From a virus: DNA of 30,733 nt. Under the pieces are notes generated by a model. That model was not told the origin of the DNA, searched no databases, and worked only from the letters and a program-made list of their open reading frames with translations. The position numbers were made by a program, and so were the translations under genes. Every line of letters begins with the position of its first letter. Positions within the stretch are counted from its first letter, which is position 1. Positions 1,445 through 7,383 of this stretch are shown here, piece by piece. The DNA lies in the IMG/VR virus record IMGVR_UViG_3300046804_001770, positions 1-30,733 of that record; one strand, given 5' to 3'.

Positions 1445-2344
1445 ATGAGCAAAGGATACAAAGTTTTGAGCCTCGAAACTATCAAGCCCAGCAAGGGCAC
1501 TGTCAGCAAGTTCGATTTGGACACTGCTGCCTCAGCAGTCAAAGAGCGTGAACTGAAGAATGTCACAGACGAGGAAATCATTGAGCGTCTGCGTACACGA
1601 TTTGAGATTCTAAACGACATGACCCGTGCTGTTAAGAAGGGCGATGTACGTGCTATGATTGTCACAGGCCCTCCGGGTGTGGGCAAGAGCTTTGGTGTTG
1701 AGCAGGTACTGGCTCGTCACGATGTGTTTGCAGACGTGGCACAGAACTCAAAGCTGAAGAAGTACGAAGTAGTCAAAGGTGCAATGTCAGCGATTGGTCT
1801 TTACAAAAAGCTGTATGAGTTCTCAGATAAGAAGTGTATACTGGTGTTCGATGACTGCGATTCAGTCCTGCTGGACGACCTTAGCCTTAACATTCTAAAG
1901 GCAGCACTAGACAGCTCAAAGAAGCGTACCATTCACTGGAACACTGACAGCCGACTGCTACGCTCTGAAGGTGTGCCCAACAGCTTTGAGTTTCAAGGCG
2001 GTGCTATCTTTATTACTAATATTAAGTTTGACAATGTTAAGAGCAAGAAGCTACGTGATCATTTGGAAGCACTGGAAAGCCGTTGCCACTACTTAGATCT
2101 AACCATTGACACAGAGCGTGAGAAGCTGCTGCGAATCCGACAGGTCATAACCGAGTGCGGCATGCTAGATGACTATGAGTTTAGTGATGTAGAGAAAGAA
2201 GTCCTAGTTGACTTTATTGATCTCAATAAGAAGAAGCTGCGTGAACTGTCATTGCGTACAGTACTAAAGATAGCAGACTTAAAGAAGAGCATGCCTAGCA
2301 ATTGGCGTGCTGTTGCAGAGGTTACGTGTATGCGCCGCTCCTAA
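1445..2344 (+). CDS. AAA+ family ATPase
   Basis: A 299-residue soluble P-loop ATPase. Walker A is GPPGVGKS (residues 75-82), Walker B is ILVFDDCD (about 132-139), a sensor-1-like FITN follows at about 189-192, and an Arg that could serve as a finger lies near ESR at about 211-213. After residue 220 comes a helical lid-like region ending in a basic tail. The order of motifs is that of a single AAA+ module; I see no protease, helicase or clamp-loader signature that would fix the substrate. It is the last and largest gene of the rightward early module, with GGAGCGA upstream. It may be a remodelling ATPase acting on a host or phage complex. The region after its stop forms the structured RNA described separately, so that RNA is probably its 3' untranslated region or is cut from it. 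Confidence 0.9.
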   Translation: MSKGYKVLSLETIKPSKGTVSKFDLDTAASAVKERELKNVTDEEIIERLRTRFEILNDMTRAVKKGDVRAMIVTGPPGVGKSFGVEQVLARHDVFADVAQNSKLKKYEVVKGAMSAIGLYKKLYEFSDKKCILVFDDCDSVLLDDLSLNILKAALDSSKKRTIHWNTDSRLLRSEGVPNSFEFQGGAIFITNIKFDNVKSKKLRDHLEALESRCHYLDLTIDTEREKLLRIRQVITECGMLDDYEFSDVEKEVLVDFIDLNKKKLRELSLRTVLKIADLKKSMPSNWRAVAEVTCMRRS

Positions 2345-2399
2345 CACTGCGTATGCGTAGGGCTGTAGTGTAGCCCCTAGCTAAGTGTAGTCTGGTAAG

Positions 2400-2416
2400 T
2401 CCGATTCGCTCCCGGC
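2400..2416 (+). repeat. 17-base unit TCCGATTCGCTCCCGGC, copy 1
   Basis: Identical to 2476-2492. Self-complementary CCG/CGG ends (2401-2403, 2413-2415) present the nine-base loop ATTCGCTCC (2404-2412). Confidence 0.9.
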
Positions 2417-2465
2417 ACAGTATTTAGCTAGACTCCCAAAGAACTGCCGTGAGGCAGCTCTTTAG

Positions 2466-2512
2466 CCCCTGAGGATCCGATTCGCTCCCGGCCTCAGGGG
2501 TTTTTCTTTTTT
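2466..2512 (+). terminator. Strong rho-independent terminator carrying the repeat unit in its loop
   Basis: CCCCTGAGG (2466-2474) pairs perfectly with CCTCAGGGG (2492-2500), followed by TTTTTCTTTTTT (2501-2512). The loop holds copy 2 of the 17-base unit (2476-2492). It ends the rightward early module. Confidence 0.9.
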
Positions 2513-2788: not shown

Positions 2789-3211
2789 TCAATCCCACAT
2801 GCTACGGAAACTGCCGTAGTGTCTAAATGCTGTCAATACTGTTTCAGCTAGAAATTCAAAGTTATCACGCATCTGTGTTACAGTAATACTGGGCACTGTG
2901 CGTAGCGCACGATCATAACTGCTTTGTCCCAATTTAACCCAATAGTCCTGTGTTATACCACGGTTAGTACCCAACTCAGGAAAGACTGAGCGTGTAAACC
3001 AACAGACATTGCCAAAAGCCAGTGCTGCTTCACTGTTTGTGATATTCATGTAAGTTTCTGCATAACTGGGTTCTGGACGCCAATTGGGGCAGTCTATACG
3101 TTCAGCTAGGATTCTAGCTTCGTACTCTACTATGTTGATAGGTATATTCCAACCATGTAGTTCATTAGTGTCTGTGAGTATTTTACGGATTTCTTTGACG
3201 GCCCATTCCAT
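2789..3211 (-). CDS. Unknown late protein, 140 aa
   Basis: A 140-residue soluble protein of mixed alpha/beta character, rich in aromatic residues (for example NVCWFTRSVFPELG in the middle and RHYGSFRSMWD at the C-terminus). No catalytic motif is recognised. Translation is well supported by AAAGGAG six bases before the ATG. A T4-late-like box, AATAAATA on the minus strand, lies 20 bases upstream, the same distance as at the genes starting at 4960 and 9313. This suggests late expression, so an assembly or virion role is plausible. It is the leftmost gene of the leftward block and faces the non-coding region. Confidence 0.8.
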   Translation of the reverse strand: MEWAVKEIRKILTDTNELHGWNIPINIVEYEARILAERIDCPNWRPEPSYAETYMNITNSEAALAFGNVCWFTRSVFPELGTNRGITQDYWVKLGQSSYDRALRTVPSITVTQMRDNFEFLAETVLTAFRHYGSFRSMWD

Positions 3212-3350: not shown

Positions 3351-3776
3351 TTACTGGTACAGGTAGTTGACCGTTTCGGGATTGTCTTGCAGTATGCTAG
3401 CACCGTTGTTAAGGTGGAAACGACGTGCCATTTCTGTTTTAGGGCTCAGTGTTACATACTGCTCAATCGTGGGTCTTTGCTGTCTAATCCAATCTCTAGT
3501 TGCCACTATCAACTTACGACCTGCTCTGGGCTGATAACTCCAAATGGTGTAAAAAGCAGCTACACGATCACCCCTGTGGCCCAGTTCAGTTTCCGTAGTG
3601 GGCACTGAATCTAGATAAGCTACACAGACCACTGCTTGAGGCACACGTTCTTCTAATAAGACAAATATTTCAGCATGGTCATGTACACGAGCTGCTGTGG
3701 GAATTGAAGGACGTACTGGATCGTCCTTTACTAAATGAATAAGAGGGTCGTTTAGGTCTTTGATTATGTGCAACAT
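3351..3776 (-). CDS. GNAT-like acetyltransferase fold protein, 141 aa
   Basis: A 141-residue protein whose strand order resembles the GNAT fold: an N-terminal strand and helix, a beta hairpin (VVCVAYLDSVP), a central strand with a basic glycine turn (AAFYTIWSYQPRAGRKLI, where acetyl-CoA would bind), and a C-terminal LSPKTEMARRFHLNNGA like the end of GNAT domains. The match is by pattern, and the acetyl-CoA loop is not canonical, so it could be a non-catalytic relative. No good Shine-Dalgarno precedes the ATG. The start codon lies at the edge of a perfect 10-base inverted repeat (3775-3784 and 3815-3824), which could hide it in the mRNA. Confidence 0.55.
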   Translation of the reverse strand: MLHIIKDLNDPLIHLVKDDPVRPSIPTAARVHDHAEIFVLLEERVPQAVVCVAYLDSVPTTETELGHRGDRVAAFYTIWSYQPRAGRKLIVATRDWIRQQRPTIEQYVTLSPKTEMARRFHLNNGASILQDNPETVNYLYQ

Positions 3777-6423: not shown

Positions 6424-6452
6424 ATTATATACTCTTTAGGTTTTAATTGCAA
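6424..6452 (-). promoter_or_regulatory. sigma-70 promoter giving a leaderless helicase mRNA
   Basis: On the minus strand, TTGCAA (6447-6452), a 17-base spacer and TATAAT (6424-6429), then AACACA and the ATG at 6417. The usual distance from the -10 box puts the transcript start at the ATG. Confidence 0.65.
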
Positions 6453-7383
6453 TGTGTTTAACGGGATCCCAACGATAATTCCATTCTCGTTGTTTTGTAT
6501 GATACAATACTGCACCTATGGCACTGCTAGGATCCCCAGGCTGAGGCAGTGACCATATATACGGCCAATTAGGCTCTACTACTCGTTGATTGGCTAGGCT
6601 GTTCATAGCACAACCGCCCATATAGACCAAACAGTCGGCGTTGGTCAACTTTTTTGCTGTATGCATAACTAATTCAACATTACGTTCAAATACTGCTTGT
6701 ACAGCGGCAGCAATGTCACATTGGTCTTGTAAATTGTTTATTTCATAGGGCCAGTCTAGTACACCCCTGTGCAGATTTTTTTGCAAATTTACAGGAGGCA
6801 GTATATAGTCTAAAACATCTCTATAATATCTGTCTGAATCACCGTTTGTGCTCATCTGTTGAAATACATGCTCTTGTTTAATAGGTTCAAGCCCTACCAG
6901 TTTAGTAAATGCACTGTACAGTAGTCCTAGACTATGAGGATATCTTCTACCCCAAACTTTTTTCATTTCCCCGTGTTTAGCTTCCCATATACTGGCGCAG
7001 TCCCATTCTCCTATGGCATCTAACACTACAATTGCCGCATGATTAAATGGACTAGTAAAGTAACCAGCAGCGGCATGACTGCCATGGTGACTAGTATAAC
7101 GTAGTTGGGCATATCCCAAGCCGGCCGTTTTAAGGTACTGTCTCGGCAGTACAGACCAATCAAATGCTGTACGATATTGACCAGCATAGATTTGACGCGA
7201 CTTTTTAAGCCATGGATTTTCATACCAAAAAATAGTGTCAGGTCCGCCGTTAGTTATAGACTTTAATATTAGATTTCTATCTAATGCGTCGCTGAGGCGA
7301 AACTCCCAGAGTTTTAATTTTGAATTTTCAAAGACAGCAAGACTGCTGCCGTGATTCAATGCGTTAATACCCCAGATATTCAT
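6436..7383 (-). CDS. Shortened carbamoyltransferase (NodU/CmcH family)
   Basis: A 315-residue member of the carbamoyltransferase family, which transfers a carbamoyl group from carbamoyl phosphate through an adenylate to sugars or other hydroxyls. Visible are the ASKHA-type N-terminus MNIWGINALNHGSS, the metal-binding-like HHGSHAAAG (99-107), VVLDAIGEWD, and the late glycine-rich GGCAMNSLANQ (about 256-266). Full family members run to about 550-600 residues with a second YrdC-like domain that binds carbamoyl phosphate; that domain is missing here. It may need a partner, use another donor, or be a dedicated phage form. It lies between primase and helicase, coupled by an ATGA overlap to the microprotein upstream. 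The target could be a product of the sugar module. Confidence 0.8.
   Translation of the reverse strand: MNIWGINALNHGSSLAVFENSKLKLWEFRLSDALDRNLILKSITNGGPDTIFWYENPWLKKSRQIYAGQYRTAFDWSVLPRQYLKTAGLGYAQLRYTSHHGSHAAAGYFTSPFNHAAIVVLDAIGEWDCASIWEAKHGEMKKVWGRRYPHSLGLLYSAFTKLVGLEPIKQEHVFQQMSTNGDSDRYYRDVLDYILPPVNLQKNLHRGVLDWPYEINNLQDQCDIAAAVQAVFERNVELVMHTAKKLTNADCLVYMGGCAMNSLANQRVVEPNWPYIWSLPQPGDPSSAIGAVLYHTKQREWNYRWDPVKHIAIKT

Follow-up and report, generated by a model that had tools for sequence, protein, structure and literature searches.

The C4 antisense RNA of phages P1 and P7 pairs with phage mRNA, blocking the start of translation. The sar RNA of P22 is also a phage RNA whose pairing blocks the translation start of a phage mRNA (PMC12197685). 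In Listeria, LhrC carries redundant CU-rich (CUCCC) motifs, including one in the loop of the terminator, and each can contact the Shine-Dalgarno (SD) region of a target (PMC4132741). OppZ and CarZ of Vibrio cholerae are small RNAs derived from mRNA 3' ends, and they act back on their own transcripts (PMC7398697). General shut-off of early mRNAs at translation start has been described in T4 for RegB, which recognises GGAG, and for RegA (PMC3014915).

The window, meaning the whole stretch of DNA analysed here, is a 30.7 kb fragment. Its genes include those for a DnaB-like helicase, a primase, UvsX and a gp32-like single-stranded DNA-binding protein, a set that points to a T4-like phage as the source. 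A carbamoyltransferase-like gene (6436-7383, minus strand; phrog_1601, of the host-takeover/auxiliary category) lies between the helicase and the primase. An AAA-ATPase gene (phrog_1250; 1445-2344, plus strand), homologs of which are labelled nrdC.10 in some T4-like phages, is followed directly by a multi-hairpin RNA element formed by the AAA 3' untranslated region (UTR) as far as an intrinsic terminator (2345-2512, plus strand), as judged from folding and from relatives. The region folds with a z-score of -3.45 against shuffles. The sequence-only reading of this DNA had claimed two identical 17-base units, and TCCGATTCGCTCCCGGC is indeed present at 2400-2416 and 2476-2492 on the plus strand; the 15-base core of the unit occurs at only those two sites in the window with 3 mismatches allowed (expected 0.08). 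The loop of unit 1, ATTCGCTCC, is at 2404-2412 and is the complement of GGAGCGAAT. Unit 2 has the same loop, ATTCGCTCC, at 2480-2488, antisense to the leaders and with its bases 0.97-1.00 unpaired. The terminator hairpin that contains unit 2 (2464-2502, with a T-rich tail to 2512) and a spacer hairpin with a GNRA (GUGA) loop (2438-2463) were found as described, both on the plus strand. The claim that each unit folds as CCG-loop-CGG held for unit 2 in the minimum free energy (MFE) structure of the whole RNA; it failed there for unit 1, although unit 1 takes this fold when folded alone. In the whole-RNA structure, CUGG of unit 1 is paired with CCGG and the last loop bases are mostly paired. Compensatory changes in the closing pairs across relatives back the CCG-loop-CGG hairpin of unit 1.

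No dedicated promoter was found upstream of the RNA, nor any promoter enrichment, and a terminator is present; the RNA is therefore most likely the 3' UTR of the AAA mRNA. As in 3'-UTR-derived small RNAs, it stands directly after a coding gene, ends in that gene's intrinsic terminator and shows no promoter of its own. Against Rfam 15 the window gave no family match, 16 related loci gave tRNAs only, and the covariance model of the C4 antisense RNA had no match in the window or in these 16 loci. Isolated phages, searched at the nucleotide level with this RNA stretch, likewise gave no match.

Four early genes were said to carry GGAGCGA(A) just before the start codon, and all four do, except that the second motif begins at 670 rather than 669. 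The leader is GGAGCGAA for the gene at 172-468 (160-167) and for the gene at 1116-1406 (1106-1113), and GGAGCGA for the gene at 682-1071 (670-676) and for the AAA gene (1435-1441), the last being a candidate autoregulatory site. In gene order, the matches to GGAGCGAAT are 8, 7, 8 and 7 nt, which agrees with the 7-8 base pairs with the loop that had been proposed. A promoter scan placed a sigma70-like promoter at 111-139 ahead of the first gene; others lie at 619-648 (12/12), 1055-1083 and 1387-1415, the last serving the AAA gene and presumably the RNA too. All of these leaders and promoters are on the plus strand. The predicted duplex with the loop is -12.1 to -13.1 kcal/mol for the four early leaders, the best among 38 candidate starts in the window, compared to -9.6 or weaker for the other 34 (next best -9.6, then -6.5); pairing of the same four leaders with the 16S tail, at -6.5 to -7.7, is clearly weaker. 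A fifth candidate target, CCGGTAGCGAA at 3776 on the minus strand before a 141-aa gene, has one mismatch to the hairpin complement, but its orthologs lack the match, which is probably due to chance.

Relatives were gathered through the AAA-ATPase (phrog_1250), giving 160 loci, 132 of them non-identical with the window counted in. The related records are IMG/VR contigs of uncultured phages rather than closed genomes, and gene starts were set by simple rules. The hairpin RNA is a feature of a large group of uncultured aquatic bacterial viruses, far beyond the window. Within 230 nt past the AAA gene, 49 of the 132 loci have TTCGCTCC (clade A), 67 have GCCCTC (clade B) and 16 have neither. Clade A RNAs have 1-3 hairpins directly after the AAA gene, with the 9-nt loop ATTCGCTCC nearly invariant (49/132 loci); loops usually number two per RNA in clade A and one to five in clade B. 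A T-run is present in 49/49 clade A loci versus only 37/67 clade B loci. Of 60 distinct hairpins from clade A, 58 have the loop ATTCGCTCC and two have GTTCGCTCC; the closing pairs include CCG/CGG, GTG/CAC, TTG/CAA, CTG/CAG and others. The three stem offsets are paired in 60/60, 60/60 and 52/60 of these hairpins, against shuffled maxima of 59, 55 and 51. The clade B loop GTGCCCTC is set in stems of many pair types, and four offsets are paired in 47, 44, 42 and 39 of 48 hairpins against shuffled maxima of 42, 33, 33 and 29. Inner stem pairs in both clades were above all 2000 shuffles. A loop that stays constant while its stem varies bears the mark of a loop obliged to contact another partner. 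By MFE, motif copies were mostly in hairpin loops in only 60/91 cases in clade A and 137/182 in clade B, with a background of 17%. In four loci (L128, L105, L143 and L145), the first hairpin overlaps the AAA coding end (GTG ATT CGC TCC CAC TAG), and AAA translation might therefore influence the loop of that hairpin.

Clade B forms a single branch of the tree (support 100/99). L178, one of the 16 loci with neither loop in the interval, has A-type hairpins about 430 nt past the AAA gene and elsewhere, together with A-type leaders; its position on the clade B side suggests that the clade A type is ancestral. Paride, the nearest relative among isolates (48% identity), has none of the hairpins after its AAA gene, and no relative of the AAA gene was found in GTDB genomes, hence no host clue. 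When viral contigs were scanned for the exact 15-mer, most hits were solitary and about as numerous as expected by chance, and contigs with two spaced copies were at first the only informative ones. A third loop/leader class was considered for the L275-L279 relatives (leaders GGAGCA) and set aside, with no convincing antisense hairpin found; L275, L277 and L279 are without hairpins and have a fairly uniform leader, GGAGCA(C/G).

The sequence-only reading had named, as grounds for its refutation, a leader motif that changes without the loop in related phages; the comparison came out in its favour, as GCCCTC occurs with GAGGGC and ATTCGCTCC with GGAGCGA, almost unmixed. Of the 275 distinct promoter-proximal leaders in clade A, 146 carry GGAGCGA and 1 carries GGGC. 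Those of clade B take the form GAGGGC(A), the complement of GCCCTC: GAGGGC is present in 273/454 and GGAGCGA in 1. Because the tree shows a single, deep loop switch, the switched leaders, numerous as they are, do not count as independent in the phylogenetic sense. The full GGAGCGA is missing from 129 of the 275 clade A leaders, and GGAGC is kept in 223. Complementary runs of at least 8 nt were found in 127/296 clade A leaders with their own RNA versus 12/296 with the clade B RNA, and in 138/488 clade B leaders with their own RNA versus 16/488 with the clade A RNA. Compared ortholog by ortholog, zero clade A leaders had AGGGC and zero clade B leaders had GGAGCG. AAA leaders had GGAGCG in 32/39 of clade A (0 AGGGC) and AGGGC in 42/57 of clade B (0 GGAGCG); the corresponding fractions were 14/16 and 7/10 for orthologs of the gene at 172-468, 4/6 and 20/23 for the MATRS gene, and 14/16 and 13/17 for the QYMENYG gene. 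As had been claimed for the CGA after GGAG, neither it nor the GC of clade B falls within 16S complementarity. GAGGGC, judged from its sequence, is also no better an SD than GGAG, so 16S pairing appears not to explain the leader change. Taken together, these comparisons strongly support pairing between loop and leader. Stems that would present the leaders as kissing-loop hairpins were not enriched over shuffled flanks; in clade B there may be a few long leader stems in excess (8 versus 2.8 expected). In L176, TAGGGCAAA lies just past the -10 box and ahead of the SD site in many leaders (e.g., that of the gene at 3134), and the RNA also holds GCCCTA stretches; two-site pairing is possible.

The best explanation, to which we give a probability of about 0.8, is that the AAA 3' UTR is a multi-loop antisense RNA that masks the SDs of the phage's own regulon and thereby holds early genes in check by feedback and controls curli translation. 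Control of both gene sets through base pairing with the RNA is very probable. The 3' UTR of the early AAA mRNA would be, or would yield, a multi-hairpin RNA with an intrinsic terminator, and its loops would serve as an antisense address for the SD region of promoter-proximal early genes, of AAA itself and of unlinked curli genes. With 7-13 bp of pairing the SD would be covered, and 30S subunits should then be kept from binding. With transcription of the early operon, the RNA would accumulate and turn off early translation, that of its own mRNA included (negative feedback), and it would also restrain curli translation. We infer that the RNA is made, stable and separate, that the effect of pairing is repression and not activation, and that the timing is as given here; the self-limiting switch of the sequence-only reading would depend on the same repression and timing. 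An unlikely alternative is that loop-leader pairing serves to activate or protect the leaders, for instance by keeping a nuclease away from GGAG. The co-change speaks for pairing and is silent on its sign, and RegB of T4 cleaves GGAG in early leaders and is blocked by RNA structure (PMC3014915). However, the SD itself is covered in all targets, which would normally block 30S. Moreover, neither RegB nor RegA was found in 18 records (0/18, twelve of them longer than 150 kb), which is no more than suggestive, since the records may be incomplete; the same search detected RegA and RegB in T4 and RegA also in HTVC008M.

The regulon of the antisense RNA would include genes far from it. Scanning whole records placed the motif ahead of genes for CsgF (Pfam PF10614) and for curlin-repeat proteins (PF07012) as well, at distances ranging from tens to hundreds of kb. 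CsgF leaders are A-type in 4/4 clade A records (CGGGAGCGAA(T/C)) and B-type in 2/2 clade B records (GGAGGGCA), and curlin gene leaders are of their own clade's type in 2/2 records of A and 2/2 of B. The clade A CsgF leaders are complementary to the hairpin, its 3' stem included, over up to 13 nt. The curli genes have TAAATA boxes like T4 late promoters and no sigma70 promoters, which indicates that their leaders are not copies of an early cassette. A cis-only role, in which the 3' UTR would pair solely with the 5' leader of the AAA mRNA that carries it and one ancestral early cassette would account for the matches in the other leaders, is thus quite improbable: the AAA leader does bear the motif and the early leaders resemble one another, but the flanks of the motif vary between genes, and the curli genes are unlinked, differ in upstream sequence and promoter, and match the loop clade by clade. 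The force of the argument for an antisense regulon lies in these unlinked genes with different promoters, each complementary to the loop of its own genome. Given the late-like promoters, a purely early-shutoff role would leave some targets uncovered. The curli cluster (L350-L355; G005 at about 68-73 kb, G004 at about 31-35 kb) encodes a large protein with a signal peptide alongside CsgF and a CsgA/B-like curlin-repeat protein. Phage curli genes of unknown function are described in pelagimyophages (PMC7029224) and in methylophage Melnitz (PMC9004378); the portions of these two papers drawn on here report CsgF/CsgG and not curlin subunits, and say nothing of a comparable regulatory RNA.

The motif is concentrated near the RNA (8/53 near versus 0/134 far in G007; 13/60 versus 5/292 in G004), and far genes in the same genomes mostly have SD cores without the extension. 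That the hairpins are ordinary terminators or protein sites, with GGAGCGA and GAGGGC being no more than the SD that each phage-host pair prefers, is highly improbable: one hairpin is a terminator and GGAG and GAGG are SD cores, but the CGA and GC additions lie outside 16S complementarity and are lacking in most far genes, an RNA-binding protein would be decoyed by a copy of the leader sequence rather than by its complement, and the co-switch would be left unexplained.

Compared to C4, the phage RNA has a different layout, being downstream of the early module with many matches, some of them unlinked; C4 and sar have one antirepressor target each and act in lysogeny control. The phage RNA would differ from OppZ and CarZ in having a multi-gene regulon. 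RegB and RegA of T4 are proteins, whereas the present candidate regulator is an RNA; T4-like early shut-off is known through proteins, and an antisense RNA seems to fill that place here. Literature searches restricted to an open-access library turned up no phage RNA with such a regulon. The two natural, unmixed loop/leader pairs are a ready-made swap experiment, the RNA is a rare instance of a small RNA that has evolved in step with dozens of targets, and its tie to the unexplained phage curli genes offers a handle on their function. Like LhrC, the RNA has several C-rich loop motifs complementary to multiple SDs. The LhrC family, with RNAIII, RsaE and FsrA as other UCCC-motif RNAs, is bacterial and uses a short generic CUCCC motif; in contrast, the present RNA is encoded by a virus, its loop is longer and specific, its cognate leaders belong to genes of the same virus, and the sister clade has a second, orthogonal loop/leader pair. 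On balance, we favor an orthogonal ribosome-binding-site code, in which the private loop word of one RNA addresses an early and curli regulon, replaces T4 RegA/RegB and has been rewritten as a set in the sister clade. The kind of mechanism is known from LhrC-like anti-SD RNAs, and what appears unusual here is a virus-encoded, co-evolving regulon code.
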